Source of the DNA: Buxus sempervirens
Taxonomy: Eukaryota > Streptophyta > Magnoliopsida > Buxales > Buxaceae
Assembly: GCA_947561395.2 (NCBI GenBank)
Contig: OX387193.1
Coordinates: 16,616,001-16,680,000 of the forward strand
Reading direction: 5' to 3'
DNA: 64,000 bases
Positions within the stretch are counted from its first letter, which is position 1. Each line of letters opens with the position of its first letter. Below are positions 5,106 to 49,536 of the stretch, in pieces. Under the pieces are notes generated by a model that was not told where the DNA came from, searched no databases, and saw only the letters and a program-made list of their open reading frames with translations. The position numbers were made by a program, and so were the translations under genes.

Positions 5106-5260
5106 ATGAGCGTGAGCCTCGCGCGAGCTTCGCGCGAAGGTGCGCGCGAGCTTCGCGCGAGCCTCGCGCGAGCCTCGCGTGAAGGTGCGCGCGAGCTTCG
5201 CGCGAGCCTCGCGCGAGCCTCGCGAGCTTCGCGCGAGCTTCGCGCGAGCTCGGCGGATAC
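5106..5260. repeat. CpG-dense array of GCGCGAGCTTC/GCGCGAGCCTC units
   Basis: Continues the 11-bp periodicity of the preceding array with a different unit, GCGCGAGCTTC or GCGCGAGCCTC. It is extremely rich in CpG and in self-complementary GCGCGC and CGCGCG words. It is present in LTR I only. Confidence 0.85.
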
Positions 5261-29502: not shown

Positions 29503-29608
29503 GTGTATCCGGCAACACAGGCCGGATACACAGGGTCTGTGGGTGATCCGGCCAGTGCATCCGGATACCCAGAGGCCATAGGTGATCCGGCCTGAGTATC
29601 CGGATCAC
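29503..29608 (-). promoter_or_regulatory. Second inverted-repeat cluster in F LTR (transcribed part)
   Basis: GTGTATCCGGC-N7-GCCGGATACAC (29503-29531), a weaker ATCCGG/CCGGAT pair (about 29546-29567) and GTGATCCGG-N9-CCGGATCAC (29582-29608). It lies about 1 kb downstream of the TATA box in the sense direction. E and G have three inverted repeats at the corresponding place. Confidence 0.82.
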
Positions 29609-30603: not shown

Positions 30604-30869
30604 CTATTTATAGAAATTTTAATGTATCCGGCAACTCAGGCCGGATACACTAAGGCCTCCTCGTATCCGGACTTCAAGTCCGGATACCCTAGCTTCCCTT
30701 TGTATCCGGTTTTCAAGTCCGGATACAAGACATAATCATTCGAAAATTAAATGCCGCCGCGAATTTGTCGGGCGATCGGCGCGGATCTCGCGCGAATATC
30801 TTGATGTATCCGGTCTTCAAGTCCGGATAAGAAGGGGAGGCAGTGTATCCGGTATAGGTAACCGGATAC
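30604..30869 (-). promoter_or_regulatory. Promoter of F LTR: TATA and five 25-bp inverted repeats
   Basis: On the minus strand CTATAAATAG (30613-30604) is preceded by inverted repeats at 30624-30648, 30663-30687, 30702-30726, 30806-30830 and 30845-30869. The steps are 39, 39, 104 and 39 bp. Arms are GTATCCGGN/NCCGGATAC with 7 bp between them. The 5' LTR has the same arrangement shifted by 17,952 bp (TATA at 48556-48565). The layout equals that of LTR E apart from one extra copy. Confidence 0.87.
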
Positions 30870-31584
30870 AAATCGAAAATTTACGGATTTGCCCCTCGAC
30901 TTGACCGATTCGACTGACTCGACCGATTTGACCTTTTTTGATATCTACGGATCGCCCGTACGAAAATTTTATATTTAAGATTTAGTTCCTGAGATATTTT
31001 GCTGCGTTGGCTGCCACGTGTGCAGTTCTTGCGCCACGGGTGCAGTTTCTGGCTTTTGCTACCTGGAAACTTTGACAGATCATATCTCCCTCATCCGAAC
31101 TCCGATTTGAGCAAACTCAATTGTGTTAAACTCGTATCGGAGCCCTCTATTTAATGACATGGGGCTAAGCACTCGGCACGGATTCCGAGAAAAAGTCAAC
31201 TTTTGGCTTTTCCTTAAGTTTGACCGCCCTTAGAATCTTCATCCGGACTCTGATTCCTGCAAACCCAATTGCGCTGGAACCGTGTCAGGATTCCCTATCC
31301 GTTGGGCTAAAGTAAGGTTTTTGGCACGGAAATCGAGGAAAAGTCAACTCTTGGCTTTCCCTCAAGTTTGACTGCCCTTAGAACCTTTATCCGGACTCTG
31401 ATTCCTGCAAACCCAGTTGCGTTGGAACCGTGTCGGGATTCTTTATCCAACTGGGTAGACCAAGGTGGCCAAATTTTATCTGATTTAAAGGTCAACTTTT
31501 CACCCCTTCAGGGTTTGACTTCTTGGCCGGGTTTTTTTTTTACATTTTCTGGCTTTTTGGGAGCGCAAAAATGAGGTGCTTACA

Positions 31585-31597
31585 GCTGCCCCTCTTT
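31585..31597 (-). other. Polypurine tract of element F
   Basis: On the minus strand AAAGAGGGGCAGC directly precedes the 3' LTR start TGTAAGCACC. It is identical to the tract of element A. Confidence 0.9.
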
Positions 31598-33735
31598 GCC
31601 GGAGTCACCTTGCGGATGAACGGCAAAGAGAAAAAGAATCTCGTTTTTGCGCCTGGCATTTCCATCGACATGGTTGATGAGCTAAGTCTTTTGAAATTTT
31701 CACTTGGAGAGGGAAGCGGCCAAATCATGTGGCGTCACTTCCCGGCTTCGGAGTTTCCTTACCCTTTTCTTTCGGGTTTTTGTAGGGCAACTCTTTAGCC
31801 TTTGGTTTAAGTTTTGAAAGAGATGAGATTGGACTTGAGCTCGCCAACCTGTTTCGGCGTCGATGCCAGATACTGGACAATATTCTTTCTTCTTGTTTGT
31901 TCCATTAAAGTTTTTAGGTGTTTTTTTTTTTGACTTTTGATCCATTTTTATATCTTTTACCCGAAGCTTACCTTTCTCTTGACGGCCAAGGGTTGGGTTA
32001 GGATGCGGACCGAGTGGGGAAAAGAGGAAGGAAGAGTGGAGGAGGCGCGGCTGTTGGTGAAGAGGTGCTCCCAGCGCTGTCCAGTGCCTCAGAGGGGCCC
32101 ACACACCTGCTCTAATCTATTTACAAAAGTGTGAAATCAAAATTACAAAAGGGGCCATCTTGCCCGGTGATATCTTCATTTATGCTTCTTCTTCTTCATG
32201 TCTTCTTGTCCCTTCTTTGGTAGCTCTGGCTTGTTCTCTTAGAGAGGCTCCCTGGCTGGGCATGACTGTTGCTGGAGATTGGGAAGGAGTCCTTTCCTCA
32301 TTGCCTCTCCTTTTGATTCAATCCTTGTCATTGGCGAGCGTGGGAGTCTCTCTGGGAAGGATGCTCCACTGGGGATAAGCGGGGATTCCTTACTCTGCCA
32401 TTTTCCTTTATACGGCCTTCTCCCTCTGCTTGGGTGCGAATTCTTCATGTTCGTTCAAGCTTTTGTTGAGTGCGAGAGGTTCCGCCAGGGATTGATGCGA
32501 GCTTGCTTGTCTTCTTTCCGCTCTTCTTCGCAAAGCCGGCCTCTTCAGACTGGGCAAGGCTTGAGAAGTCCACATCATCAAGTATCTTACTGCTTGGGAG
32601 GACTCAACTGGGGATGCAAGGGTGTCGTCCTTTGTTTGCTGAAGGTCTTCCACTGGGGATTTTGGAGGCGACGTCCGTCATCTCACTTTCGGCGTACCTG
32701 TGAAGGCAGGCAAAGACGACATGTTAGCCAGGGAATAGTTGGGGAGTGCAAAACATTTCTCTTATTCTCTTTTTGCTCCGAGCCTTTTGCCCATTGCAGC
32801 CAGCAGCGGCCCTTGCCAAGGTTAAGAGATTATCAACTCAGGTTAGTGGCCCAACATGGAGCTCAAAACAGTTAAGCAGAATAATTATAGAGAAAACAGG
32901 TGTGTCAGTGTGTGCCTGTGTATGCAATATCAACGAAATTTCCCAAGGTCAGAAGGGACTTGGAGCGCTTGGTATTTTCAGTAGCATCGTCATCACGGGC
33001 CACTGTGAAGTCGTTAACTCGGGCACAACCTGCCGGTTCGGACCCCTCAGCTCTGTGCAATTTTCTCAGTTTACTGTCTGCCACTGTCACTGCTCTCGTC
33101 TGTATCTTGCTCCGCTTGATCCAGATGCGACCAGTTCTTCTCTTTTTTTTTTTTTTTTTTTTTTTTGATTGATTGACTAACCACACAACGCCCTTTTTTC
33201 GGGTTTTCGCTGTGTCCAGCCTTTTTAGGAAACTCTGAATTCCGTCATTGCTGATGAACGCAGACCTGACTGTTTGCCCTGATCATTCCTTTCAAGATCC
33301 GAGAGGTCTTAGAGATAGGACGAAACATAGGCTGGGTCTCGGCTATGAAAGAAAGGACAGATGGCTCAAGAAGCTTAATTGTTTGGGTTTGCAAAGTGTG
33401 CTACTTTTATTATTGGTGGGACTTACATCCTGGCTTATTTGTACCTCTGTTTTTGTTGGGTAAACAGTTCCCCATTTTTTGTGTTTCTTTCTTTTTTCTT
33501 TTCTTTTTCTATTGCATTCTCTCTTCTTTTTGAGGTTTTTTTCTGGGCAAGAGTGCCCTGCTTCTTTTTGCTTTGCCGGGAATGCCCGTCTGATGTGTAG
33601 AACACTTGCACTGGGTTGAAAGAATTTTAAGGCTCAAAATTGTCTAACTAGGGGAGAATTTAAGGTATTTGAAAGGATTTACAGTTTAAAGGAGAGTTAA
33701 GGATGGCCTCTCTTCATTTCCCAATCAGAATGATC
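31598..33735 (-). other. Element F 3' untranslated region
   Basis: About 2.1 kb between the gag-pol stop and the polypurine tract, with a run of about 21 T (A on the sense strand) near 33146-33166. Plus-strand ORFs of up to 198 codons in it are not conserved with element A and look accidental. The length agrees with the A 3' UTR. Confidence 0.82.
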
Positions 33736-36700
33736 TTAAGCATAGTACAGTTTGACTGCGTCTGCATTTATCGGCTCCGGAAAAATTGTCCCGTCCATTT
33801 CTTGCAGGATAAGGGCTCCTCGGGACAGAACCTTGTGGACTACGAATGGCCCTTCGTAGTTCGGCTTGAATTTCCCTCTATTGTCCTCTTGATGAGGAAA
33901 GATTCTCTTCAGTACCAGATCTCCCACTTTGAACTGTCGTGGCTTTACTTTCTTATTGTAGGCTCGCGCCACTCTCTGTTGATAGAGCTGGCCATGGCAC
34001 AAAGCCTTAATCCTCTTTTCATCCAATAACTGCAACTGGTCAAATCTGGATTCTTCCCATTCGACATCACTGATTTCAGCTTCCTTCAGAATTCTGAGTG
34101 ACGGAATCTGTGCTTCCACGGGGAGGACTGCTTCCATTCCATATACCAAGGAGAACGGGGTTGCCCCGGTCGATGTCCTAATCGACGTCCGATAGGCGTG
34201 CAGTGCATACGGCAGCTTCTCATGCCAGTCTCTGTAGGTGACCACCATTTTCTCGAGTATCTTCTTCAGATTCTTGTTGGCAGCCTCTACTGCCCCATTC
34301 ATCTTGGGCCGGTATGCCGTGGAGTTTAGATGTCTGATCTTCAGATCTTCACACATCTTCTCCATGTCCTTATTATTCAGATTCTTGGCATTATCAGTGA
34401 TGATTGCTTCTGGAACTCCGTAGCGACAGACTATGTTGTTTTTGATAAACTTGAGCACATGAGACTTCTTGACATTCACGAAGGACATGGCCTCTACCCA
34501 CTTGGTAAAGTAGTCAATTGCCACTAAGATGAACCGATGCCCGTTTGAAGCCGTTGGATGAACTTGGCCTATCATGTCAATTCCCCAGATGGCAAACGGC
34601 CAAGGTGATGTCATGGAGTACAGTGTGTTTGGCGGCGCGTGCATATTGTCGGCATAAATCTGGCACAGCTGACATTTTCTGACATGAGCGTAGCAGTCTG
34701 CCTCCATGGTCATCCAGTAATAGCCCATCCTTAGAATCTTCCTTGCTAGCATATGCCCATTCATGTGTGCGCCGCACAACCCTCCATGGACTTCCTCAAT
34801 CAATCTTTGCGCCTCGGCTTCCCCGACACATAGCAGTAGGGAATCGTTGTATGATTTCTTGTACAGCCTACCTCCACTGTAGAAGTATTGCCCTGCCAAC
34901 CTCTGTATAGTTCGCTTCTCTGCAGCTGAGGCACCTTCTGGCAAAATTCTGTTCCTTATGTACCTTTCGATGTCCGCGTACCAAGGCTCTTCTTTGGGTG
35001 TGCTTTTCTCGATCCTGAAGCAGTAAACAGGGTAGCGTCGAATTTCTATCTCCAATGGTTGCACCCAAGCATCATTCGTGATGGTGGCCATTGATGCCAG
35101 CGTAGCTAGTGCATCCGCAAACCGATTCCCGTCTCGTGGCATGTAGTCGAATGTCACGCTCTTGAATTCTTCTTCTAATTCCTTGACCAGCTCTTGGTAT
35201 GGTACTAACTTCACATCTCTGGTCTTCCAGTCTCCTATCACTTGATAGATAATAAGACTTGAGTCACCGAACACTTTCAGCTCTTGTATATGCATCTCAA
35301 TTGCCGCTCGCAGGCCTAACACACATGCTTCATATTCGGCCATGTTGCTAGTGCAATCAAACAGAAGTTTCGCTGCTATCGGGTGATGGACACCGTCTGG
35401 GGAGATTAGTACTGCTCCGATCCCTTTTCCATTCACATTCACTGCCCCGTCAAAGAACATCTGCCACTTGGTTTTTTCTGTATCATCTGCAGATTCTGTA
35501 CACATCACATCTTCGTCTGGGAAGTGAGTCAGAAGCGGTTGGTAGTCAGGTAGCGGATGTTCTGCCAAGTGATCCGCCACAGCTTGCCCTTTTATTGCCT
35601 TCCTAGTTGTGTAGACAAGGTCATACTCCGATAAAAGGACTTGCCATCTAGCAACCCTACCAGTGGAGATCGGCTTCTCAAAGATGTACTTTAATGGATC
35701 CAGATTGGAGATTAGTAGGACTGTGTGACTAAGCAAATAGTGTCGGAGCTTCTGAGCTGCCCAGACTAGGGCACAACACGTCTTTTCAAGCACTGTGTAT
35801 CTGACTTCGATGTTGGTAAATTTCTTACTTAGGTAGTAGATTGCTTGTTCTTTCCGTCCTTTCTCATCGTGTTGTCCTAACACACATCCTACAGCCGTCT
35901 CAGAGACTGTCAGATACATAATCAAGGGTCGTCCTGGGACAGGTGGGACCAATGTTGGCGGACTCATCAGGTAGGCCTTGATCTTATCAAACGCTACTTG
36001 ACAGTCGTCATTCCAAACCACCGGGTTGTCTTTCTTTAGCAACTTGAATATAGGCTCACACACAGGAGTCATCTGCGCAATGAACCTACTGATATACTGC
36101 AATCTGCCCAGGAATCCTCTCACTTCCTTTTCTGTCGATGGAGGAGGCATCTCCAGAATTGCCTTTGCTTTGAGAGGATCGACCTCAATGCCTCGCTTGC
36201 CCACTATGAAGCCGAGCAGCTTTCCTGAAGTCACTCCAAACACACATTTGTTTGGGTTGAGCCGAAGTTTGTGCTCTCTGAGTCTGTCGAACATCTTTCC
36301 AAGGTTCACCAAGTGGTCTTCTTCTTCCTTAGACTTCGCTATCATGTCATCCACATACACCTCCATTTCCTTGTGTATCATGTCATGGAATAACAGAGTC
36401 ATCGCACGCTGATATGTAGCACCCGCATTTTTCAGTCCGAACGGCATCACGCGGTAACAGTAAGTGCCCCAGTGCGTGATAAAGGATGTTTTCTCCATAT
36501 CCTCGGGTGCCATTCTTATCTGGTTGTAACCAGAGAAGCCGTCCATGAAGGAGAACATCGAGTGTGTTGCAGTATTGTCAACCAGTACATCAATGTGCGG
36601 CAATGGGAAGTCGTCCTTCGGACTTGCTCTATTCAGGTCTCTATAGTCAACACACATCCTGACTTTCCCGTCTTTCTTGGGAACCGGCACGATGTTGGCC

Positions 36701-39700
36701 AACCACTCTGGATAGTGAGTTACTTGCAAGAATCCGGCATCCAACTGCTTGGTGACCTCTTCCTTGATCTTCAGGGCCCACTCCGGCTTTGTGCGCCTGA
36801 GCTTCTGTTTCACAGGTACGGCCTCAGACTTTGTTGGTAACCGATGCACAACCAAGTCCGTATCTAACCCGGGCATATCCTCGTATGACCATGCAAACAC
36901 GTCAGAATAAGATTTAAGAAAATCAAACATCTGTTTTCTCAATAATGGTGCCAGCTTTTTACCAATTTGGAGAATCCTTGGTTGTGCTACTTCACCTATG
37001 TCAATTGACTCTGTTTCCTCAATGTTAGCCTGGGGACCCATCTCATGCCTTTCCAATGCAAGTTGGATTTCAAGCGGGGTCTCCCATGATTCATCGTCGT
37101 CCTCATGCTCGAAAGGCTCACAGGGGACGATGTTTGAATCTTCTTGCTGCGATGGGCGAGTGCCCCAATCTGACTTGTCGAGTTCTTGCTCGTTTTCCGG
37201 ATTGGGCACTGGCTCATGCATTTCATTTATTATTGCCATCTGGACTGGCTTTTCAAATTCCTTTTGTTCTTTTTGTTCAATTATGGCAATCTTATTACCA
37301 ATCCCGTGCCCCAGATCTTCCAGGTGTGCGTCGGGATTGACACTAAGATTGCGATGCTCAAGTTGCTTATTTTTGTTATTTTCTTTTTCAAACAGATGCA
37401 AGTAGTAGGAAGCATTGAGATATTCATTAAAAGTTTCGGCAGTAGCTACAATAGAAAGTTCAGAGGTAGTGGAAACCCCCTTTGGGATAGTAGCTTTGCT
37501 GATGGCAAAAGGTGTGGCGCTCCAGTTTTTGAGTGGTGCCTGATCTTCCTGGTTGATAACGGCTGCCGCTTCCGGCTCTTCAGCTAGTACCATGTTGGCG
37601 CTGTCGTCAGAAGATAGGCAGATAGGATCATGCGCTGCGCATCCCACTGGCTTGTTCTGGCTTCTCTCTGACTGGGGGCCAGATTCTGATGATATCCCCA
37701 TCCATGCTCCACTGATGGGGATGGCCCACGGTATCTCGTCCCTGGGTGGCGCATATGCGATGGTGACTTCGTTGGCCGGGTCAACTCTGGGGGGTGCAAA
37801 CATTATGGGCATCCCAGTTGGTATCCCAGGAACCGTAGAAGAGTAAGCTGGTGGTGCCCATTTGCCGTAAGCTGCATGGTACACTTCTTCCGGTACCGGC
37901 CCTAGCACCTGAGGCATGCTACGGAACATGCGGTTCAAACCATCGCGAGTTCCAGGGTGCGGGATATAGGGGCGCGGAGGAGGCGATCTTGGCCTGCGGG
38001 TCGGTACTCCTGAGCTGCCTCGCCCTTCCATCATGCAGACATACATGATTGGGCCCTCTTCTTGGGAGTCTCCCAGGGGAGCTGGTGGTGGTGCTTCTAT
38101 GACAGTCGCCGAGTTGATCGGGATCCCATCAGGGATGAACTGCTCATCTGGTGGGGCGAAGGCCATGGTGACTTCGTCGACTGAGTCTAGGGCGACCAGT
38201 GCTGGCAGGCCCTCTGGTGACCCCTTAGGAACCAACGGGTCTACTTCCATTATATCCCCAATCATTTCCATAGGTGGTGGCTCTTCCCAGAGCATCTGAG
38301 CTAGGCCTTGCAGGTAGTCTTCTTCTGCAGCAGGGGTGTCCAGAAACTCATCTCCCCACCCTTGGGGGACTATATTCTCGATATCCTGAGCCGCTTCATG
38401 CTCCATGTTAGAGAAGCGGTGGTACAAGTTCCCGTGTGTGCATATGGGCCAGTGGGGGTCTCTTCCTTCAGTTCTGGCCCTTTTCCTCTCTGCACGGTTC
38501 CCATGGAGTCGGGAGTAGTCTTCTGGCTGTGGTCTGAACCCCAGTCCGAAACCAGTAGTCTGCTCATGAGGTCGGATGGCTGCCTTAATTCCCTGCTTAT
38601 ACTTGCCTAATCCATCACCGGCCCTAAGGCCCCAGTCCGCGCAGTCAGCAGCGCTGAACATGTACTTTCTCCTCTTTTTCGAGAGTCGTCGCCCCCTCTC
38701 AGCTTCAGGGATACGGTTCACCTGCACCATCTCCACTGCTTGGAAATTGAGTGTGGTGGGCAACTCATAGTCCACATAGGGTACTCCGACCTTTTCGAAC
38801 TCTCGGTGATCCTCGGCATGTACTGTTATAAGTTCGTTGCCTGACACGAACCGGACCATTCTGTGCAGTGTGGAAGATACTGCTCCTGCCTGATGCAGCC
38901 AAGGCCTCCCGATCAGCAAGTTGAATGAGGCGTTGATGTCCATGAGTTCGAACTCCATGGTGAATGGCCTATCCGCGATCATGATTACCAACGTGACCTC
39001 TCCCAGTGAGTCCCTTCGGGCGTTGTCAAAGCCTCTGACATTGTGCCCACTTGGCTTGATCATGGTAGGGCTCAACTGCAGACTATGAAATGTCCTCATC
39101 GGGCATATGTTCAGTGCTGACCCGTTGTCAATCATGGCTCGTTTCACGATGAGATCGACGCACTTCACTGTTATGTAGAGCGGCTCAGCGTGGTCACAAA
39201 CCTCTGCGGGCAAATCTGCTGCAGAGAAGGAGATGGCCTGGGGTGTCATGATTACTGACACCACTGCCCCTAGCTGTTCCGGGTCAATGCTTGCAGGTAC
39301 GTGTGCATCCCCTAGGACCTTCATCAGTATTGTCCGGTGCTTCTCTGAGTCAATCAGAAGTCGCATTATGGAGATTTGGGCGGGCACCTTGTTCAACTGC
39401 CGGAGGAGGTCGTACTCTGGGGTGAACACACTATGGTGCAAATCTGTGACTTCCTCCTCTGTGGCCCTTCCCTTTCTTTTGAGGGTCGGTGGCAATTCTG
39501 TGACCACGTCCTTCCCTTTTTCTTTCCTTTTCGCTTCTGCTTCTGCTTCCTCTCCCTCTGGTGCGGGTGGGGGATCGGTGTTTACGTATCGACCAGATCG
39601 GGTGATTCGGTCGATTTCTGCTTCAATGGTGGTTGCAGAGGTGGCGTGAAGGCGGAAAGATGTAGTGGGGTAGGGTGGGGATACCCTGTTGTACGAGGGT

Positions 39701-42129
39701 GGTTCCAGGTTGAGTTGTGAAAGGTTTAGGGTGGGTGGTTCAAATGAAAGGGAGAAAGGGTCTTGTGGAGGTGAGTCCATGATGTCATGGATGTTAAGGG
39801 CGGAGGGGTTGGCGAAAGGGGTGGGGTAGAAAAACTCTTGGTCTGTGTGTGGGTGAAAATGCACCAGAGGGAGATCCGTGGGGAAGTCACTGCCATCTCC
39901 TTCAACGACGTTCACTGCCCTGCTTTCCTCTGCCGACGTGTCCTCTGAGTCCGTATCAGGGGACTCATCTGAACTCTCATATGGATCAAGCAGGGTTGCA
40001 GGTTCAGGAGTGGATGGCGGTTCCTCTTCTTCCGTGGCATAAGGGGAGACGAACCACTCTAACGTGCCGCGGGAAGAGGATTCTGAACTTGGCTCCGCTG
40101 ATAGGAGATCGGAGAGGGATTGTAGGTCCGGCTCTGAAGTTGCAGACATATATTCAGGTGGCCATCCGGTAGACATCTGCGGGGGTACCTTTGAACTGCC
40201 CACTGACGCGTCCGTGTCCGGCGGCCCATTTCGGAACCAGGGTCCCTCAGAACTGCCGATTCCTTCCCTACGTGGAGGGGATGAGTCACTGATCCATCCG
40301 CACTGTACCGGGTTCCATGGCCCTGAGACCTCCTCACTGCTCTGAGGTTCATCCTCAATCGTGCAGACCTGGGCCTCTGTATTCTCATTAGCTACCCTTG
40401 CTGCCGAGGGGGTTCCTGCTCGAAGCTGCACCCTCACTGTCTGCCCTGGTTGGCCAATAAGTGTAGAAGGGTCGAACTTCCTGGTGCCCTGATCGCTGCT
40501 CACCTGATTCGCTGTTCTACTAGTGGAGGCTTTTGAGTGATCTGGGAGTGGATTGGTGGTTACGCCAGCTGCTGGAGTCTGGGCCGGTGGTGCTGGAGGG
40601 TCGACCGTGATGCGCTTACTATCAATTAGGTCTTGGATATCGTGCCTCAAATCCCAGCACCGATTGGTGTGGTGCCCTGGGGCACCAGAGTGGTACTCGC
40701 ACCGCTCTGCAGCGTTATAGCTTCTGGCGTTGACCAAACGAGGGTTCGGGGGTTTGACTTGCACGTACCCCTTCTTTAGCAAAGTAGGCAGCAACTCTGC
40801 CGGTGCGTACGGGAGTGGAGTGAAAACCCGCTTCATTCTGGCCTCCATCTCTTCCCTTGTTCTTCTTACCCCTTGGTAAGCAGCTTGTCCGGTTCCTTGG
40901 GGTGCCACTACTTCTGGTCTTTGAGAGAAATGATGGGGTTGTACAGGGTGCACGTAATTCACTGCCTGCTGTTCCTGCCTCCTGGGCTCCTGCCCTTGGT
41001 TTCTGCTGGCTTGCCCTGACACTGGCCTCCTTGGTGCGGCACTCTGCCCACTGCCATCTATCTTTCCGGCCCTTACTGCGTCTTCAATCCGATCTGCAGT
41101 CAAGATCAGGTCATTGAAGTTCGATGTACTCTGCCCCAGCAGCAGAGTGAAGAAAGGTTGGCCCAATGACGCAATAAACAATGACGTCATCTCTTGTTCT
41201 AGCAACGGCGGCTGTACTAATGCTGCCAATTCCTTCCAGCGCTTGGCGTATTCTCTTACTGACTCTTGGCTCTTCTTTGCCAGCCTCTGCAATTCTGCCC
41301 TTGTTTGCACTATCTGACTGTTCAGGCGGTACTGCTGGATGAAGACTGCTGCCAGGTCATTCCATGTCTTGATCTTAGCCTTGTCTAGACTCAGGAACCA
41401 AGAGTAAGCGGCCCCGGCTAGTGACTTCTGGAAGAACTGCACCATAATCCGCTCTTCCTTGGCATATTGGCACATGTCACCAGAATAGGACCTCAGATGG
41501 TTCAGGGGGCACCCGGTGCCGTCGAATTGGTGCAACTCAGGGCATTTGAACTTAACCGGGAGTTGGATATCTGAAAAGAAACAGAGGCTTTCCAGAGTAG
41601 CCTCGCTCTGCACTGTGCTAGGTTGGAGTTGCTTGAGCTGCTCCTTCAGGGCGGCCATTTCCGTTCTATTCTCCTCCCTTACCGCTGTCAGCTTCTCCTC
41701 AAACTGCATTTCCTGGGTTCTGTACCAGTCCTCATCACCCTGTCCCAGATGGATAGGCAGAAACTGATCTGGTTGGGGGACATGGAATGGCACCGCCGGT
41801 GGTGGTGGTGGTGCTAGGGGAGGGGGGTTCGCTGGACGCGGCGGTGGCGCCACTTCTGCCTGTGGTGGGAACGGGGGCTGCGGCTGCTGGGCAACTGGTG
41901 CTGCCGGTGGGGCCTGCCTCACTTCCCTCAGTTCTGTCATCAGTTCCTGGATGATGGAACCCATACTGTCCATCCTTTGCTGCATCTCATTGACCACTTG
42001 GGCATGACTGGACTCTGCCGGGTGTTGCCCTGGTGGCGTCTGCTCTCCTTGCTGTTCCATATCGAGCCTTCTCCTCGATCTTAACAGGTACGGACTTCTG
42101 AAAGCAATTTTTGGTACCTGATGGGACAA
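33736..42129 (-). CDS. gag-pol: Element F gag-pol polyprotein, 2797 aa, intact
   Basis: One ORF holds all core functions. Approximate residues: 1-170 Pro/Gln-rich leader; 175-385 gag capsid-like domain (AAYSWFLSL, YRLNSQIVQTRAEL); about 476-490 a Cys/His cluster (CEYHSGAPGHHTNRC) in place of a classical zinc knuckle; 980-1110 aspartic protease with IDNGSALN and NLLIGRPWLH; 1150-1190 G-patch (GDGLGKYKQGIK); 1790-1990 reverse transcriptase with YVDDM at about 1924; 2035-2160 RNase H; 2220-2345 second, archaeal-type RNase H; 2447-2490 integrase HHCC zinc finger; 2510-2625 integrase core with D, D and E at 35-residue spacing; then a C-terminal tail without chromodomain. Start chosen at the first Met of the open frame. 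It is separated from ORF1 by 1.3 kb, so translation needs splicing, reinitiation or internal entry. Confidence 0.96.
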   Translation of the reverse strand: MSHQVPKIAFRSPYLLRSRRRLDMEQQGEQTPPGQHPAESSHAQVVNEMQQRMDSMGSIIQELMTELREVRQAPPAAPVAQQPQPPFPPQAEVAPPPRPANPPPLAPPPPPAVPFHVPQPDQFLPIHLGQGDEDWYRTQEMQFEEKLTAVREENRTEMAALKEQLKQLQPSTVQSEATLESLCFFSDIQLPVKFKCPELHQFDGTGCPLNHLRSYSGDMCQYAKEERIMVQFFQKSLAGAAYSWFLSLDKAKIKTWNDLAAVFIQQYRLNSQIVQTRAELQRLAKKSQESVREYAKRWKELAALVQPPLLEQEMTSLFIASLGQPFFTLLLGQSTSNFNDLILTADRIEDAVRAGKIDGSGQSAAPRRPVSGQASRNQGQEPRRQEQQAVNYVHPVQPHHFSQRPEVVAPQGTGQAAYQGVRRTREEMEARMKRVFTPLPYAPAELLPTLLKKGYVQVKPPNPRLVNARSYNAAERCEYHSGAPGHHTNRCWDLRHDIQDLIDSKRITVDPPAPPAQTPAAGVTTNPLPDHSKASTSRTANQVSSDQGTRKFDPSTLIGQPGQTVRVQLRAGTPSAARVANENTEAQVCTIEDEPQSSEEVSGPWNPVQCGWISDSSPPRREGIGSSEGPWFRNGPPDTDASVGSSKVPPQMSTGWPPEYMSATSEPDLQSLSDLLSAEPSSESSSRGTLEWFVSPYATEEEEPPSTPEPATLLDPYESSDESPDTDSEDTSAEESRAVNVVEGDGSDFPTDLPLVHFHPHTDQEFFYPTPFANPSALNIHDIMDSPPQDPFSLSFEPPTLNLSQLNLEPPSYNRVSPPYPTTSFRLHATSATTIEAEIDRITRSGRYVNTDPPPAPEGEEAEAEAKRKEKGKDVVTELPPTLKRKGRATEEEVTDLHHSVFTPEYDLLRQLNKVPAQISIMRLLIDSEKHRTILMKVLGDAHVPASIDPEQLGAVVSVIMTPQAISFSAADLPAEVCDHAEPLYITVKCVDLIVKRAMIDNGSALNICPMRTFHSLQLSPTMIKPSGHNVRGFDNARRDSLGEVTLVIMIADRPFTMEFELMDINASFNLLIGRPWLHQAGAVSSTLHRMVRFVSGNELITVHAEDHREFEKVGVPYVDYELPTTLNFQAVEMVQVNRIPEAERGRRLSKKRRKYMFSAADCADWGLRAGDGLGKYKQGIKAAIRPHEQTTGFGLGFRPQPEDYSRLHGNRAERKRARTEGRDPHWPICTHGNLYHRFSNMEHEAAQDIENIVPQGWGDEFLDTPAAEEDYLQGLAQMLWEEPPPMEMIGDIMEVDPLVPKGSPEGLPALVALDSVDEVTMAFAPPDEQFIPDGIPINSATVIEAPPPAPLGDSQEEGPIMYVCMMEGRGSSGVPTRRPRSPPPRPYIPHPGTRDGLNRMFRSMPQVLGPVPEEVYHAAYGKWAPPAYSSTVPGIPTGMPIMFAPPRVDPANEVTIAYAPPRDEIPWAIPISGAWMGISSESGPQSERSQNKPVGCAAHDPICLSSDDSANMVLAEEPEAAAVINQEDQAPLKNWSATPFAISKATIPKGVSTTSELSIVATAETFNEYLNASYYLHLFEKENNKNKQLEHRNLSVNPDAHLEDLGHGIGNKIAIIEQKEQKEFEKPVQMAIINEMHEPVPNPENEQELDKSDWGTRPSQQEDSNIVPCEPFEHEDDDESWETPLEIQLALERHEMGPQANIEETESIDIGEVAQPRILQIGKKLAPLLRKQMFDFLKSYSDVFAWSYEDMPGLDTDLVVHRLPTKSEAVPVKQKLRRTKPEWALKIKEEVTKQLDAGFLQVTHYPEWLANIVPVPKKDGKVRMCVDYRDLNRASPKDDFPLPHIDVLVDNTATHSMFSFMDGFSGYNQIRMAPEDMEKTSFITHWGTYCYRVMPFGLKNAGATYQRAMTLLFHDMIHKEMEVYVDDMIAKSKEEEDHLVNLGKMFDRLREHKLRLNPNKCVFGVTSGKLLGFIVGKRGIEVDPLKAKAILEMPPPSTEKEVRGFLGRLQYISRFIAQMTPVCEPIFKLLKKDNPVVWNDDCQVAFDKIKAYLMSPPTLVPPVPGRPLIMYLTVSETAVGCVLGQHDEKGRKEQAIYYLSKKFTNIEVRYTVLEKTCCALVWAAQKLRHYLLSHTVLLISNLDPLKYIFEKPISTGRVARWQVLLSEYDLVYTTRKAIKGQAVADHLAEHPLPDYQPLLTHFPDEDVMCTESADDTEKTKWQMFFDGAVNVNGKGIGAVLISPDGVHHPIAAKLLFDCTSNMAEYEACVLGLRAAIEMHIQELKVFGDSSLIIYQVIGDWKTRDVKLVPYQELVKELEEEFKSVTFDYMPRDGNRFADALATLASMATITNDAWVQPLEIEIRRYPVYCFRIEKSTPKEEPWYADIERYIRNRILPEGASAAEKRTIQRLAGQYFYSGGRLYKKSYNDSLLLCVGEAEAQRLIEEVHGGLCGAHMNGHMLARKILRMGYYWMTMEADCYAHVRKCQLCQIYADNMHAPPNTLYSMTSPWPFAIWGIDMIGQVHPTASNGHRFILVAIDYFTKWVEAMSFVNVKKSHVLKFIKNNIVCRYGVPEAIITDNAKNLNNKDMEKMCEDLKIRHLNSTAYRPKMNGAVEAANKNLKKILEKMVVTYRDWHEKLPYALHAYRTSIRTSTGATPFSLVYGMEAVLPVEAQIPSLRILKEAEISDVEWEESRFDQLQLLDEKRIKALCHGQLYQQRVARAYNKKVKPRQFKVGDLVLKRIFPHQEDNRGKFKPNYEGPFVVHKVLSRGALILQEMDGTIFPEPINADAVKLYYA

Positions 42130-42238
42130 TTCGCAGGCATTAGTGCAATATTACACAAATTGATTACACAATTTTACCTGATTGAATTTATTCATTTATT
42201 TATTTATTTTTTTTGTTTTATGATATGATTTGACTAAC

Positions 42239-42680
42239 TGGTCTATTTTAGCTACCCTAAGGCAACAAGGGAAGAGAACCTGGTTTCGAATCAAATGATC
42301 TATTTTAGTTACCCGTAGGTAACAAGGAAAGAGAACCTTAAGGAATTTAGAAGACTGATCTATTTTGGCTATCCTAAGACAACCGGGGAAGAGAACCCTA
42401 ATGATCGAATCTATTCTAGCTACCTGCAGGTAACTGGGAGAGGGAACCCTACTTTTTTTTTGAAAGCTGATCTATTTTAGCCGCTCGGAAGCGACTGGGA
42501 AAGAGAACCCTATTTTCTGAAAGCTGATCTATTTTAGTCGCTCGGAAGCGACTGGGAAAGAGAACCCTATTTTCTGAAAGCTGATCTATTTTAGTCGCTT
42601 GGAAGCGACTGGGAAAGAGAACCCGGTTGAACTAATCTATTTTAGCTGTTTAGGCAAGGAAAGAGAACCTTCAATTTAAG
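42239..42680 (-). repeat. Eight tandem units with stem-loops between ORF1 and gag-pol of F
   Basis: Each unit of about 45-60 bp has conserved flanks (GATCTATTTTAG and GGGAAAGAGAACCC on the plus strand) around a variable inverted repeat. On the sense strand the stems read GUUGCC/GGUAGC, GUUACC/GGUAAC, GGUUGUC/GAUAGCC, GUUACC/GGUAGC, AGUCGCU/AGCGGCU and AGUCGCU/AGCGACU (twice), with 4-nt loops. Seven of eight are fully paired if G-U is allowed. The eighth, nearest ORF1, is degraded. Confidence 0.88.
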
Positions 42681-42810
42681 GGGTTTTGCTTGAGCTTAGA
42701 ATCACAGGGTTGGACCAATCAAGGTCTCAGAAAGGGGACTGAAGAACAGCACTCAGGGTTGCCTTAACCAAATCCTGACTCACTCGTCGGGGGTCTCGGC
42801 GATACAAAGA

Positions 42811-43098
42811 TTCAGCTAGTAGTACCCGGACGCTCCGCAGCCAATATCCGATTCACTCACCGGCGGCTTTGGTGTCACTGAAAGGGGTAGGCTATGCCAG
42901 GACGCTCCTCCACCAATATCCGACTCATCCGTCGGCGGCTTTGGTGCCCTAAGAATTCGGCTAGTAGTACCCGGACGCTCCGCAGCCAATATCCGATTCA
43001 CTCACCGGCGGCTTTGGTGTCACTGAAAGGGGTAGGCTATGCCAGGACGCTCCTCCACCAATATCCGACTCATCCGTCGGCGGCTTTGGTGCCCTACA
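42811..43098 (-). repeat. 145-bp tandem duplication, each made of two related half-units
   Basis: The segment from TTCAGCTAGTAGTACCCGG (42811) recurs almost exactly from 42956. Each copy holds two related halves around CCAATATCCGA and GGCGGCTTTGGTG, giving four half-units. Each half can form a short stem on the sense strand (CCGGU-N6-AUCGG or CCGAC-N6-GUCGG). Confidence 0.88.
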
Positions 43099-43440
43099 GG
43101 TTTGACCGTATGATCTTGAAAAGATGCAGACGGGTGTGATCTGAGCTCAAAGTCTCGGGTGTTTTTAAACACTTGCCGGGTTTGGCGATCTCAATGAGAG
43201 AGATGCAATCAAAGGTAATTAGGTGGTCGCAGCGACCAAGCACATTGCAATTATCTGGAGAGAGGTGGTCTGTCGGAGACCGATTTGCCCTATTGGAGGG
43301 AATTAATTATTTTGTCTCTTGTTCTTATTAAGTTTGCACAATATGTAGCAAAGTAGAAATAAATTCATGCTTTAATCAAAAGGCGCCGTCACGGCACAAA
43401 GTACATCATCATTCATGGCAAAATACAACAAAGCCAAAGT
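43099..43440 (-). other. Non-coding spacer just after ORF1 of F
   Basis: About 340 bp with no ORF and no clear repeat. Together with the two repeat blocks it makes up the 1.3-kb inter-ORF region. I saw no convincing splice acceptor that would decide how gag-pol is expressed. Confidence 0.6.
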
Positions 43441-44922
43441 CTAGCTAGGTTGGTCATCATCATAATGGGAGGACACGTCCTGCCTCCTCAAGGCTCGTAG
43501 AAGCTTGTTCCGCAGACGTCGGTCCTCCTCAGCGCGCTTCCGCACTAATTCCATTTCATGTTGCAAGGCCGTATTGGCCTGCCTGCTCTCCCGTTCCGAA
43601 TCCACATAAGCTGAATGGATACGGGAGTGAGTCTCTTGCAGTTCGGCCACCCTGTCCCTATATGTGTTAGGGGGCGGAACTGGAATGTCGCTTGTAGCGA
43701 TAGGCTGGAGAGGTGGGGGGCCGTCGTGGCCGAACTCCCGAGCTATCCACTGCTCGTAGTCTCGAAAACGTGATTCGATGAAGACGTCTTCTCGATATAC
43801 ACACATTGTCTTCCATTCCACCAGCAGTTGGGTCCTTAGTCCCTTGGTGAGTGGACCAATCAAATTGCCCAAGTCGTCCTTGACCGGGATTCCCTGCGGT
43901 TTCCCAAACTGTCTCAGAACTCGAATCGGATAGTATGGCACGGCATGGGTAAGGCCTATCAAGGCAAGTCCCTCTCTTTTCTTGAAAGCTATGATGGGGG
44001 TGTAGGGGATGTTGTAGGTACCCCACCATCTAATGTCTGTTTCTCCCTTCAGGTGGAGAAAGTGGTTAAACCAATCCTCACGGGCGGGTAGGTCTGGTTT
44101 GATCTCTCTTTGAGCCAACCAATGGATGTTGTCGCCGGTTGCCTTGTAATATGCACTGACTGGTGATGACACCATCAGGTGGTCTTGCAGCCAAATGTGG
44201 AGAAGGGGAGCGCACCCTTGAAACCTCCGAGTTCCGTTTTTGGACAAAGTCAGGGAATGGAACAGTTGAGCTAGGATCAGTGGCATGATTCGGTACCCTG
44301 CCCTGAGTTGATCCACAATTTCCATGAGGGCCAAATTGATGGTGTCTCCCCCAGTTGGAAAGAAGATTTGTGACAGAACCACAAGGGTGAAGGTGTCAAA
44401 CCAAGCCCGGGGTCTTTCCTGCTTTTTGTTTCTCATTTTCTCAGCTAGGAATGTTTTAGAGACCCGAGTAAATGATTTGTCACCTCCTAAGGTCTGAAAT
44501 TCTCCCCTTGGGAGGCCAAAGAAAACGCAAGCTTCATTCTTGTAACTTTCTTTGAGACTTGGCCTGGCGGGTTCTCCTAAGTCACGAAATCGGAGGAACA
44601 GGTCAAGTTCCTCAATTGTGGGAGTCAACTCATTGACCCCGAATCGAAACACTGAAAGCTGGGGATCCCAGAAAAGCAGGGCTGCTTGGATCATATCCCA
44701 GTTAATCGGCACATTTAACAGGGACAAAGTCTGTCCCATGTGGTATTTGTGCTCCCATTCAATCTGCCCACTCCCTTGGAGCTGCCTTGTCCAAGAACGG
44801 ATCCAGGGGGTATCCCAGGCACACTTCTCTATCCTAGGGAAACGGGTTCTCTCAGATGAGGATGAAGATGCCATGCCAACTATCCGATCAAAATTCCGAG
44901 TCAAATTAAGGTTCCACACCAA
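43441..44922 (-). CDS. Element F ORF1, 493 aa, plant mobile domain-like, intact
   Basis: A 493-codon ORF upstream of gag-pol on the same strand, at the position of the ORF1 that defines Ogre-type elements. The middle (residues about 55-330) resembles the plant mobile domain of MAIN/MAIL-type proteins, with the typical FRFGVNELTPTIEELDLFLRF block split as FRFGVNEL then TPTIEELDLF, and a Trp-rich stretch near 275-300. The C-terminal 70 residues are strongly charged and heptad-like (VAELQETHSRIHSAYVDSER onward), probably a coiled coil. The start at 44922 is the first Met; Met17, before a Ser run, is an alternative. Role unknown; the intact frame in a recent element suggests it is used. Confidence 0.85.
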   Translation of the reverse strand: MVWNLNLTRNFDRIVGMASSSSSERTRFPRIEKCAWDTPWIRSWTRQLQGSGQIEWEHKYHMGQTLSLLNVPINWDMIQAALLFWDPQLSVFRFGVNELTPTIEELDLFLRFRDLGEPARPSLKESYKNEACVFFGLPRGEFQTLGGDKSFTRVSKTFLAEKMRNKKQERPRAWFDTFTLVVLSQIFFPTGGDTINLALMEIVDQLRAGYRIMPLILAQLFHSLTLSKNGTRRFQGCAPLLHIWLQDHLMVSSPVSAYYKATGDNIHWLAQREIKPDLPAREDWFNHFLHLKGETDIRWWGTYNIPYTPIIAFKKREGLALIGLTHAVPYYPIRVLRQFGKPQGIPVKDDLGNLIGPLTKGLRTQLLVEWKTMCVYREDVFIESRFRDYEQWIAREFGHDGPPPLQPIATSDIPVPPPNTYRDRVAELQETHSRIHSAYVDSERESRQANTALQHEMELVRKRAEEDRRLRNKLLRALRRQDVSSHYDDDQPS

Positions 44923-46384
44923 GACTCTAAGTTAGTCCTAAGACATGCATAATTTTAAGCAAAAGAGATAACCACTAGCAGTTCTATCATGCTTCACCAA
45001 AATGAGCAAAACAAAACAGTGCGGAATTTAACTCAGGCACACCTGGTGTGTGGTCCTAGGGGTTGGCGCCAGTTAAGGCGCGACTCCTAGACATACTTGT
45101 GTAGAGGAGCACATTCAAGTCCCGATCAGTCTTTCTGTCTTTCATCTGCTTTCGGTGTCGGACCCTAGCGAAATTACAGCTTGCCATCGAGGGCGAATTT
45201 TTACAAGATATTTACAAAAGCTGCAAAGAATTCATCCTTAAGGCTGTTGGGAGCCAAAAGGAAGGATACAAATTGCTTTCAAAGTGGGTAGGCTAAAAAA
45301 AATCCCTAAATCTAGGGTTTAGTACCCTGGCATGTTTTCATCTGTCTGTCTGATCTGGCCGGCTTTCGTCTGCTCTAAAAGACCAATCTGGACTTAAAGT
45401 GCTCCCAGCGGACTCTAATGGGTCAAGACCCATAGGATACAGGACTCCATGCATGGATCTGGGGTGGTTTCCCTGATCAAGAATTAGGTGAGCTTCCTAA
45501 GCTAGGGCCGAGGTAGCCCAGCATCTAGGGTTTACTCAATTTGATGCAAAGAACGGGGGTTGCTGCCCCAAATGGACTCTGGATTTTATTTCAATTTTAA
45601 TCATCATTCACATCCTACTCACCCTCTCATGCTCAACGTAAAGTTCATTCAGAAACGTTAGGTGGGGAAGGATACCCAGCCCGAGACATAAGCCTACAAG
45701 GGTCTGGACCAGCACTGGATCCTCGCGTGCCACGGCAAGAAACCAGTGGTGCTAATGGACTCCAGAAACTGGGGGGATGGGTTTACCCTGCTTTCCCCGG
45801 CAAGCCACGGGAGCGTAGGTGCTAATACCATCCCAAAGATCAGTTCATAGTAAGAAGAAGGGTAGGCTGCTAGAGAGGTCTAAGTTTTGGTAAAGAAGTA
45901 GCAGTATCCGATTCGCTCATCTATCAAAAGGTCGGATCATTCACGCATCCTCCCTCGTGCGGGTCACCCCACGCAGTTTTATCACACAAAATGCGGGAAA
46001 TTAAATTTTACATATATGCCATCATCCATCCAGGGTGTGGTGGTGTGCCCGTGTGTGCAGTTGGGCTGGGTGCTGTGCCTATACGGGCGAGTTTTGTCTG
46101 GATTTAGGTGATAAAGGAATCCTTACTGCCTCGTATAGTAAAGTTCAGAATTGGCACGCTTTACGATGTCCTGGGAGAATCCCCAGGTAAGTGGAGGGTC
46201 ACAGGGGACCTCTTAAATTCCACTTGCCTTAGGCAATTATCGCGTCCTTGTGGCAGGACTCCCCAGAACACGTAGTTACGTGTATTCTGTACCTTGCTAA
46301 GCGGGGTAGCAAAAGTTCCTAGAATATCGCCTAAGTCCCTCTTGAGCTGACCCGGTCCTAAGTAGGGTCCTACTGGGCTGAGTA
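44923..46384 (-). other. Element F 5' untranslated region
   Basis: About 1.5 kb between the primer-binding site and ORF1 without a credible ORF. The block 45728-45822 (CACGGCAAGAAACCAGTGG to GGGAGCGTAGG) is conserved in element C (15178-15275), making it a candidate for packaging or another RNA function. Confidence 0.8.
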
Positions 46385-46403
46385 GTCCCCAGTGGAGTCG
46401 CCA
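46385..46403 (-). other. Primer-binding site of element F
   Basis: On the minus strand TGGCGACTCCACTGGGGAC begins three bases after the 5' LTR end CGCGCACA. The first three bases match a tRNA CCA end. The tRNA species is not established here. Confidence 0.82.
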
Positions 46404-46406
46404 GGC

Positions 46407-49400
46407 TGTGCGCGCGTGGGAAACGCGGCACGGGGTAATTCGGAGTCGCCACCGCCTGATGAGGTGCAGGCGGACACCTGGGTGCCTAATCTTGTTTATT
46501 TAGGGCTTTTGGGTCTGCGGCTTGAGATTCTAAGTCGGGATTTCGGTTGCGGTCTGGGGAAGTCCGTAGACACCCCAGTCCACCCCGTCGGATGACGGGT
46601 CCCGTGGGTTCCCTGGTTTGAGTCAGCTTTCTTGCTTGGTTCTCACCCGATTCCTAATCCGGCATGCTTTTAAGTTAGGTCTTGGCGGGACCACCTGAGT
46701 GGTGTGGGTCCCTTTAGTTGATTTTATCTTTGCTTTAACTTAAATTGTCTGAGTCTGATTGGGTGGGCCCCGTTGGAAGGCTCACGGTGTCCTTGTCGGG
46801 CTTGGATAAGCCCATGTGCCCTTGTGGGCCTCTGTCTGAGCCTAGGAGGCCCTGTGGGCTTTGGTTAGTGAATTGATTTTGCTTTAGGTTTATATTTGAA
46901 TTATTAGGTTTGTTTTCATGCAAAAGTGGGCCGGATAGATTTGTGGGCCCCTTATGTGGGCCCACGTGGTGGCCAAGGGTTTTTTAGACTTATCTTTATA
47001 TTTGGGCCGAAATCTTTTGGGACGCTGGGCTTGGGGCCTGTAATCCGGTTTTGGGCCTTGGAAGCCCGAATTCAATGAAGTTAGGGCTTGATCCCTTCCT
47101 TGGCTTAGTTGGCGGGCTTTGGCGGGCCCGGCAGGCCCTAGCCCATGGTCTCGGCCAAACCAGATAGTTTATGCATTCACTCATATCACGAGATACGGGC
47201 GGGCCGCATTGGGCTTGGCCCGCCCGGTTCAATTTGTTCATTTCATTTAAGTTGTTCAATTAGCATGCTTTGGTTCATTGGGCTTGGTGGGCCCCGTTGG
47301 AAGGCCCACAAGTGTGCCAAGTTGGACCGACGATCCAAGTCCCAAGTTGGGTTTCCGGGTGGACCGGAAACCCTGTTGGTTCCGTTGGTTTAGCTCCGGG
47401 TCATTCAAAATTCGGCAAAGGATCAATGACATGCAAAAAAAATCATGCTGCTGTGTGTATCCGGCAACACAGGCCGGATACACAGGGTCTGTGGGTGATC
47501 CGGCCAGTGCATCCGGATACCCAGAGGCCATAGGTGATCCGGCCTGAGTATCCGGATCACACTGGAATTGGCCTTTTTGGGTTTTGGCCTTTTGGGACTG
47601 ATCCCAGGGGGTTCCAGGGACATGTTAAGGGTCTTGTGGGCTCCTGGATGAGCCCACGTAGGTTCAGAATTGGGAGAAGCCACACTTGGCTTCTCCCCTT
47701 GGACTTACAGCGAGGTAAGGGGGGGGCCTTGGGGAAGGGGATCATTCTTTCATGCATGCATTCACATATAGCATATTCACATGGACAGATTTTCGAATAA
47801 TGAAGACAGTAACTATCCTGTCATGGAAGGCCTAGTCTAATACGTAACATACACAACAGTAGATAATGACCCATATGGCTCTACCATGCATATCGCCATG
47901 CGTGCAAGAGAGAACACGAAGAAGATAAAACCACAACAGAGTCTAGAGCTCTAGTCCCATGCTTTAAACAAGAAGGAGACGCCGTAAGAAGGGAAAGAGA
48001 AGGGGGCTTATTCTGGGGGGTACATTAGATGAGCGGGGAGGGACATTCTCCTCCCCGAGATAATTACAACAGCGTATTAAGTATGGCATTTTACTAAGCA
48101 TGCATGGTTCCTTAAGAGGCCTACGTGGGTATCATACATGAGGTGACTCCATGCCACGACAGGGAGACCAAGTGTGTGCATATAACGTGCTAAAACTAGG
48201 CCATGCAAAGCCAGAAGACAAAAAGCAGAAGAAATTCCAGAAAATTCTACATTTAATATATGTTGAAGCTAACGTGATGAGGAGTGATACCTGAGGTCCT
48301 TGACCTCTTGTGCAAGGTGGTGGTATGCCTTGGGGGTGGTACAGCTCCTGGAGACCTCCTTGGAACACCAACAGCCACTCAAGTCCTTCTTCTTTCAGTG
48401 GGGATAGAGAGGAGAAGGAGAAGGGGGGAAGGGCTTGGGATGGTATGGGGGCCAAGAGGGGTTGAAGGGGTGGGGATTCGTGTGGGAGAAGAGTGGAGGG
48501 AGGAAGCTCAAGACAGCCAAGAAAAGCCCAACCCCGGAAATGAGCTGCTGGTTTGCTATTTATAGAAATTTTAATGTATCCGGCAACTCAGGCCGGATAC
48601 ACTAAGGCCTCCTCGTATCCGGACTTCAAGTCCGGATACCCTAGCTTCCCTTTGTATCCGGTTTTCAAGTCCGGATACAAGACATAATCATTCGAAAATT
48701 AAATGCCGCCGCGAATTTGTCGGGCGATCGGCGCGGATCTCGCGCGAATATCTTGATGTATCCGGTCTTCAAGTCCGGATAAGAAGGGGAGGCAGTGTAT
48801 CCGGTATAGGTAACCGGATACAAATCGAAAATTTACGGATTTGCCCCTCGACTTGACCGATTCGACTGACTCGACCGATTTGACCTTTTTTGATATCTAC
48901 GGATCGCCCGTACGAAAATTTTATATTTAAGATTTAGTTCCTGAGATATTTTGCTGCGTTGGCTGCCACGTGTGCAGTTCTTGCGCCACGGGTGCAGTTT
49001 CTGGCTTTTGCTACCTGGAAACTTTGACAGATCATATCTCCCTCATCCGAACTCCGATTTGAGCAAACTCAATTGTGTTAAACTCGTATCGGAGCCCTCT
49101 ATTTAATGACATGGGGCTAAGCACTCGGCACGGATTCCGAGAAAAAGTCAACTTTTGGCTTTTCCTTAAGTTTGACCGCCCTTAGAATCTTCATCCGGAC
49201 TCTGATTCCTGCAAACCCAATTGCGCTGGAACCGTGTCAGGATTCCCTATCCGTTGGGCTAAAGTAAGGTTTTTGGCACGGAAATCGAGGAAAAGTCAAC
49301 TCTTGGCTTTCCCTCAAGTTTGACTGCCCTTAGAACCTTTATCCGGACTCTGATTCCTGCAAACCCAGTTGCGTTGGAACCGTGTCGGGATTCTTTATCC

Positions 49401-49536
49401 AACTGGGTAGACCAAGGTGGCCAAATTTTATCTGATTTAAAGGTCAACTTTTCACCCCTTCAGGGTTTGACTTCTTGGCCGGGTTTTTTTTTTACATTTT
49501 CTGGCTTTTTGGGAGCGCAAAAATGAGGTGCTTACA
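46407..49536 (-). repeat. 5' LTR of element F (3130 bp)
   Basis: Right LTR in window coordinates and the promoter LTR for the minus-strand transcript. TATA at 48556-48565. The inverted-repeat clusters are as in the 3' LTR, at +17,952. Only a single-base length difference from the other LTR was found. Confidence 0.96.

Follow-up and report, generated by a model that had tools for sequence, protein, structure and literature searches.

Structure of the host element

The window, by which we mean the whole 64,000-nucleotide stretch of DNA analyzed here, holds on its minus strand an Ogre-like LTR retrotransposon, element F, with the following main features.

28454..49536, minus strand: element F, Ogre-like (Tat) LTR retrotransposon of ~21 kb
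46407-49536 (5') and 28454-31584 (3'), minus strand: LTRs of element F
43441..44922, minus strand: ORF1, encoding a plant mobile domain / DUF7745; precedes the array on the sense strand
42239..42680, minus strand: array of eight two-hairpin RNA units, between ORF1 and gag-pol
33736..42129, minus strand: gag-pol, a single open frame of 2797 codons

The LTRs are 99.968% identical over 3131 columns, and the 5-bp sequence CTTGT is found on both flanks of the element. An LTR identity of 99.97% indicates that the copy came from a recently mobile source. The gag-pol frame, whose first ATG stands at 42060, encodes gag, RT, RH, RVT_3 (a second RNase H) and integrase domains, in the order RT, RH, RVT_3, INT for the pol part (RT_RNaseH at residues 2065-2169, RVT_3 at 2226-2344 and the integrase domains at 2437-2608). 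About 1500 codons separate the gag domain from RT in this frame, unlike in intron-spliced Ogre. ORF1 is open for 493 codons and scores above the cut-off for both the plant mobile domain (PMD, 71.2 bits) and DUF7745 (76.7 bits); a protein search returned two relatives at 25-26% identity, the best of them in Solanum verrucosum (26%). For residues 1-420 of gag-pol, no protein relative was found at E 1e-10 among 7982 scored candidates. Neither gag-pol nor ORF1 had a relative in a viral contig collection, which, being viral, says little about plants.

A second RNase H (aRH), additional to the RH of retroviral type, is described as a feature of the Tat lineage, and in Ogre and Retand it is placed between RH and INT (PMC6317226). 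We read the RVT_3 domain of element F, which lies beside RH and between it and INT, as this aRH. The extra ORF of Ogre often carries a plant mobile domain, in 57% of Ogre according to the same source (PMC6317226); element F has such an ORF, located upstream of gag. The second RNase H-like domain and an ORF1 with PMD/DUF7745 therefore place element F in the plant Tat lineage and make it Ogre-like; together with the ORF1 relative in Solanum verrucosum, the domains point to a plant origin. We do not call it a typical Ogre because its polyprotein is encoded by one 2797-codon frame without an intron, whereas a spliced intron splitting two polyprotein ORFs is given as typical of Ogre, though not as defining the subclade (PMC6317226). 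At 1-9460 the plus strand carries portions of another, related element, whose ORF1 spacer falls outside the window; its DNA is 81% (1465-3033) and 77% (7198-9460) identical to the pol of element F and to what follows it.

Eight two-hairpin units between ORF1 and gag-pol

The spacer from the ORF1 stop to the open gag-pol frame measures 1312 nt, in agreement with the 1.3-kb gap given by the sequence-only reading of this DNA, and all eight of the tandem units that it had placed at 42239-42680 were located. In the sense direction each unit consists of a first hairpin (HI), a second hairpin (HII, with a 6-7 bp stem and a four-base loop) and a conserved tail AAAAUAGAUC, which changes little among units. 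Bit scores are those of a covariance model.

42628..42673, minus strand: u8, first in the sense direction; HI AAGG-UUCUCUUU-CCUU pairable, HII lost
42582..42627, minus strand: u7 core; HI GGG-UUCUCUUU-CCC, HII AGUCGCU-UCCA-AGCGACU; 69.1 bits
42525..42570, minus strand: u6 core; HI GGG-UUCUCUUU-CCC, HII AGUCGCU-UCCG-AGCGACU; 73.1 bits
42468..42513, minus strand: u5 core; HI GGG-UUCUCUUU-CCC, HII AGUCGCU-UCCG-AGCGGCU; 73.6 bits
42407..42452, minus strand: u4 core; HI GGG-UUCCCUCU-CCC, HII AGUUACC-UGCA-GGUAGCU; 60.4 bits
42356..42401, minus strand: u3 core; HI GGG/CCC, HII GGUUGUC-UUAG-GAUAGCC; 67.9 bits
42296..42341, minus strand: u2 core; HI AAGG-UUCUCUUU-CCUU, HII GUUACC-UACG-GGUAAC; 69.8 bits
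42239..42284, minus strand: u1 core; HI AGG-UUCUCUUC-CCU, HII GUUGCC-UUAG-GGUAGC with two G-U; 63.4 bits

From u8 to u1 the start-to-start spacings are 46, 57, 57, 61, 51, 60 and 57, and the cores of u1-u7 align without gaps over 46 nt. We left u8 out of this alignment because its HII is lost; the covariance model still matches it at 42633-42673 (37.2 bits). In the window, this model finds the eight units and no other copy at E < 1, the next match having E 1.6. The evidence base is thus one element and one locus, with about five independent units, since u5, u6 and u7 are near-identical.

HII is the variable stem that had been described as paired in seven units, and it can indeed pair on the sense (minus) strand in seven of eight; the stems named for it, GUUACC/GGUAAC and AGUCGCU/AGCGACU, are those of u2 and of u6 and u7. 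In u3, two HII pairs differ on both sides from those of other units. To this hairpin we add HI, which can pair in all eight units and has a GGG/CCC or AGG/CCU stem closing a pyrimidine loop of eight bases (UUCUCUUU, UUCUCUUC or UUCCCUCU). Change is unevenly spread, with 0.38 changes per column in loop I, 0.36 in the tail, 0.86 in the HII arms and 1.25 in the HII loops. The latter begin with U in 7 of 7 cores and end with G or A. Three are of the UNCG type on the sense strand (UCCG in u5 and u6, and UACG in u2, closed there by C-G) and none on the antisense; UNCG loops are described as very stable (PMC8794818).

Conservation of pairing among the units

Given the seven cores and no supplied structure, RNAalifold returned exactly HI and HII. 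These helices are paired in 68 of 70 cells (97.1%, against a shuffled mean of 87.0%), a level reached by none of 500 column shuffles, and 6 of the 10 pairs have changed on both sides, a number attained in 2 of 500 shuffles. None of the 500 attained the covariation score, while sliding the partner by 1-3 columns lowered pairing to 21-60%. The number of further pair types (8, against 10.0 in shuffles) was the sole one of five measures to fall under its shuffles. Dealing whole 3' arms among units gave 47 paired HII cells in 36 of 5040 permutations; for HI alone, which has one varying pair, 240 of 5040 were as good.

The alifold z of the seven cores is -6.96 on the sense strand and -4.2 on the antisense. 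As u5-u7 are near-duplicates, we rescored subsets of units, which gave sense values of -5.3 for u1-u5, -5.6 with u6 replacing u5 and -4.9 for u1-u4, each with 0 of 500 shuffles as good. For comparison, we took the window's 14 tandem-repeat rows with a period of 25-200 and three or more copies, from which eight non-overlapping arrays were kept, seven of them evaluable; the eighth is part of the present array and has fewer than 3 distinct units, and one of the seven is a second array in the same spacer. The strongest of these seven reached z -2.72 without any double change, although their alignment may be blurred, as they were cut at a fixed period into no more than 12 units apiece, and they were scored with 100 shuffles, against 200 for the present array. 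Together with the pairing counts and the RNAalifold result, this comparison supports the earlier proposal that pairing is conserved through changes on both sides.

Folding of single sequences gives a more modest picture. Individual units beat their shuffles moderately (sense z -0.55 to -3.34 for u1-u7, +0.10 for u8), and 120-nt windows over the array have a mean sense z of -1.27, near the LTR values (-1.21 and -1.38). The best fold of the 46-nt u1 core retains HII without HI, and the minimum-energy fold of 561 nt keeps HII in four of eight units and HI in five of eight, the rest pairing otherwise.

Simulations on trees of the units set these counts against mutation models. In 40000 neutral runs, 47 of 49 paired HII cells were obtained in 0.0025% with a transition weight of 4 and in 1.7% with transitions only; another parametrisation of the neutral model gave 47 paired cells in 1.4% of 6000. 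Under a coding-only model restricted to transitions, at least 47 HII cells were paired in 12% of runs. No run combined at least 47 paired cells with at least 5 double-changed pairs in any of four neutral or coding-only settings, each of 6000 runs.

Strand of the conserved structure

The sequence-only reading took the confinement of G-U pairs to the sense strand as the mark of selection on RNA. Within HII the confinement stands, the 49 sense cells of u1-u7 comprising 41 Watson-Crick, 6 G-U, 0 A-C and 2 U-U, but in the flanks it is reversed: when HII is extended outward by seven positions, 21 of 49 cells are A-C on the sense strand and G-U on the plus strand. The G-U cells of HII moreover derive from 3-4 one-sided changes (columns 21 and 32; most parsimonious trees), which would all fall in the sense direction by chance in 1 in 8 to 1 in 16 cases. 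With so few changes, and with the opposite bias in the outer helix by that reading's own criterion, the G-U/A-C argument is weak as a mark of RNA selection, and mismatch counts do not settle the strand. Template switching can also produce such changes, so that selection is not their sole possible source.

The outer helix raises the question of whether the functional strand is the antisense, which would form a 14-pair hairpin either as antisense RNA or as minus-strand cDNA. On the plus strand 91.8% of 98 cells are paired, with 5 double-changed pairs and an alifold z of -4.2; changes at the paired flank columns retain G-U or Watson-Crick pairs there, and this strand gives the more stable fold of u6 and u7 (-15.4 against -13.7 kcal/mol). 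The longer hairpin nevertheless has 6 A-C among its 98 cells, all in the inner stem, and 2 A-A. It also fails to form from u1-u4 alone, where the antisense loses the HII stem and scores z -0.9, a value that 85 of 500 shuffles match, against -4.9 on the sense strand; its signal appears with u5 or u6 added (about -4; for u1-u5, z -4.0 and 3 of 500 shuffles). The sense strand is ahead in every alifold comparison of the array and its unit subsets, and we regard an antisense function as very unlikely. The preference for the sense strand, also part of the earlier claim, is thus retained: it is favored by the alifold z, by the antisense failure of u1-u4, by the UNCG loops and by the fact that the genomic RNA of element F is the sense strand.

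Template switching as a probable source of paired changes

Covarying hairpins can also arise by mutation. On the basis of ancestral reconstructions, template switching has been put forward as a mechanism that gives rise to hairpins and repairs their pairing; multi-base compensatory changes are reported as enriched, although the role of switching in stem maintenance is called less clear in that work (PMC8794818). If one arm of an imperfect palindrome were copied onto the other during reverse transcription or replication, pairing would be kept in the array without any RNA function. The mechanism is a published one for RNA genes (PMC8794818), and the distribution of changes suits it: u1-u4 are divided from u5-u7 by two double changes and a partial third one, and two more distinguish u3. 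It also does well in simulation, with at least 47 paired cells in 27-55% of runs and 5 double-changed pairs jointly with 47 pairs in 0.03-9%, above a stepwise pairing-selection model that, at the observed number of changes, gives 5 double-changed pairs in 0 to 0.02% of 6000.

As a complete account, however, this reading meets several difficulties. The three positions abutting the stem are unpaired on the sense strand in 18 of 21 cells, where repair would be expected if a switch extends outward; at most 3 paired flank cells occur in 0-7% of runs with a 3-bp outward switch, and in 19-43% if the switch stays within the stem. At least 47 paired cells, at least 6 G-U and no A-C come together in 0.6-6% of runs, and pairing, the G-U/A-C pattern and unpaired flanks come jointly in 0 to 2.2% of 4000. 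The conserved loop I and tail, for their part, are left unexplained. Template switching without RNA function is therefore rather improbable in our estimation, and we infer instead that switching supplies changes which selection then filters.

A coding signal within the array

Could the units be the decayed remains of an in-frame protein repeat of 17-20 codons (VLFPxxLRVxKIDxL), with the hairpin as a by-product or carried within the coding sequence? One sense frame, offset 2, is alone in being open through seven cores, and its ratio of nonsynonymous to synonymous changes is 1.24 against 2.62 expected, a value reached by neutral or RNA-only simulations in 1.0-1.4% of runs before correction for three frames. 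The other two sense frames have ratios of 2.36 and 2.25 against 2.19 and 2.14 expected. Five of the seven unit spacings are multiples of 3, and open stretches of 91 and 60 codons (42196-42631) show fewer amino-acid changes than expected.

Against this, both the 61-nt spacing at a run of nine A (A9, 42453-42461) and u8 break the frame, and it has no start codon ahead of it. The 91-codon stretch has no protein relative (one candidate, none at E <=10), and none of three stretches has a Pfam match above the curated cut-off; the 60-codon stretch has a sub-threshold match to HTH_35 (E 1.7e-4). In coding-only simulations, finally, no run joined 47 paired cells to 5 double changes (3 settings, 6000 runs per setting). 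A decayed coding repeat is, in our estimation, a distinctly unlikely account of the array. RNA selection nonetheless leaves the weak coding signal in this one frame unexplained, and the module may have arisen inside a coding repeat.

AUG depletion and other candidate roles

The array lies within a stretch that lacks AUG in every sense frame.

42196..42927, minus strand: AUG-free stretch in all sense frames, 732 nt including the array; 0 AUG against 5.8 expected (order-1 Markov model)

The whole spacer has 10 sense AUG in 1312 nt against 18.3 expected. Together with the conserved loop I and the location of gag-pol behind a 493-codon ORF1, both depletions would suit a region of internal entry or reinitiation for gag-pol, in which pyrimidine loops and an AUG-poor spacer receive the ribosome. 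Yet two AUG (42195 and 42140) stand between the array and the gag start, the array by itself expects just 1.4 AUG, and the antisense strand of the spacer is likewise under expectation (13 against 17.9). Ribosome landing as the function of the array thus appears quite improbable to us.

Splicing had also been suggested as a role, and an array of splice acceptors was not supported. Units u4-u7 do place a pyrimidine tract before CAG, yet among the eight AGs of the whole of element F that pass an acceptor filter (pyrimidine tract then YAG), one falls in the array, in u1. Complementarity to the pyrimidine motif within element F was limited to two sites, at the same place in both LTRs and not at the polypurine tract. 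A search of the 64000 bases with Rfam 15 gave no match at the gathering threshold, the two sub-threshold matches in the spacer (E 8.1 and 8.5) being far under gathering scores, and ARAGORN found nothing in the array that would suggest a tRNA-like origin of HI. A gapped pattern of the unit had 0 matches in viral and in prokaryotic contig collections, whose silence, given their content, says little about plants.

Other hairpin-bearing repeats occur in element F. A second array in the same spacer (42739-43096) consists of 16-nt hairpins of two kinds, CCGACGGATGAGTCGG and CCGGTGAGTGAATCGG, set apart by a single double change and a single G-U on the sense strand; scored as a covarying set (42828-43091), it has a sense z of -1.4 and 2 double-changed pairs, reached by 27% of shuffles, and we did not retain it as such. 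At 43224-43238 and 43267-43281, neighboring hairpins stand beside a common AGGTGGTC (plus strand) and differ in their stems (TGGTCG/CGACCA and GGTCT/AGACC), perhaps a third pair of the same type. The 5' LTR carries tandem 39-bp repeats at 47474-47562 and 48593-48679, with inverted arms of the type CCGGATAC...GTATCCGG, which are also present in the 3' LTR. These repeats fold far better than shuffles, with a sense z over 120 nt of down to -6.9 in the 5' LTR and -10.2 in the 3' LTR.

Proposed role of the array

The units share a two-hairpin consensus in which 6 of 10 pairs are double-changed, loop I and the tail are conserved, and the array occupies a position between ORF1 and gag. Our preferred reading, to which we give a probability of roughly 45%, is that the array is a set of RNA modules kept in the genomic RNA of element F, likely as a multivalent platform for docking or packaging, with template switching supplying the stem changes. 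Selection would then act on the sense RNA.

In such a module, HI would present its conserved pyrimidine loop, HII would vary in its letters but stay paired, and the conserved tail AAAAUAGAUC would follow. Loop I and the tail may form the contact surface and HII a scaffold whose sequence is of no consequence, so that the repeats could offer multivalent binding to a protein. Many of the double changes probably originate in template switching during reverse transcription, and selection would keep the stems paired and loop I and the tail intact. As a first guess, the most likely role would be the docking of Gag for packaging or assembly; the loading of ribosomes for gag-pol, the first long ORF being ORF1, would be the second. 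Multivalent docking fits the array because of its position upstream of gag, its repeated conserved loop and its conserved tail. A more specific version can be put forward, although we consider it unlikely in full: the array would be an expandable multivalent docking site, whose stems are renewed by template switching with loop I and the tail preserved, and which would commit the bicistronic RNA to packaging or to gag-pol translation.

The array may bear on the expression of gag-pol behind an upstream ORF in giant Tat/Ogre elements, on the selection of RNA for packaging in plant LTR retrotransposons and on the reason for which tandem repeats are kept. With its conserved pairing and the recent insertion of its host, it offers a tangible RNA for experiments and, on a small scale, a natural case in which to weigh the parts played by template switching and by selection in keeping hairpins paired.

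Comparison with known systems

The hairpins attributed to template switching in RNA genes resemble the array in that both sides of a stem change at once, but the work that describes them deals mainly with rRNA genes (PMC8794818), not with retrotransposon repeats in tandem. For the array, conserved loop I and unrepaired flanks further require more than a mutation mechanism. Among LTR retrotransposons, the RNA transport elements of IAP (RTE) and MusD (MTE) are structured cis RNA elements (PMC12786077); by this description they are of the same general kind as the array would be, and they belong to mouse elements.

Closer to element F, the hypervariable repeats of Tat elements (Ogre, Retand) are likewise short tandem repeats in a non-coding part of the element. 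They lie between pol and the 3' LTR (PMC7004042, PMC3305785, PMC11963269), downstream of gag-pol, whereas the array is upstream of gag and behind ORF1. PMC11963269 calls both the origin and the function of these 3' repeats unknown, PMC3305785 says the same of their function, and we found no RNA structure or covariation described for them there (PMC11963269, PMC3305785, PMC7004042). Among the matches listed from the open-licence literature, none described an array of covarying hairpins ahead of gag in any plant LTR retrotransposon. The array is thus a Tat tandem-repeat region at a site where we found none described, and it carries an RNA-structure signal.

In retroviruses, the packaging signal Psi (for example in the HIV-1 leader) is made up of several stem-loops that precede gag in the genomic RNA. 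To our knowledge, Psi is neither a tandem array nor located behind another long ORF, and the array of element F differs from it on both counts, being tandem and following the long ORF1. The hairpins predicted for the array are nevertheless stem-loops upstream of gag in genomic RNA, as in a packaging signal, and it is for this resemblance of position to retroviral Psi that we prefer the docking of Gag for packaging as the candidate role.
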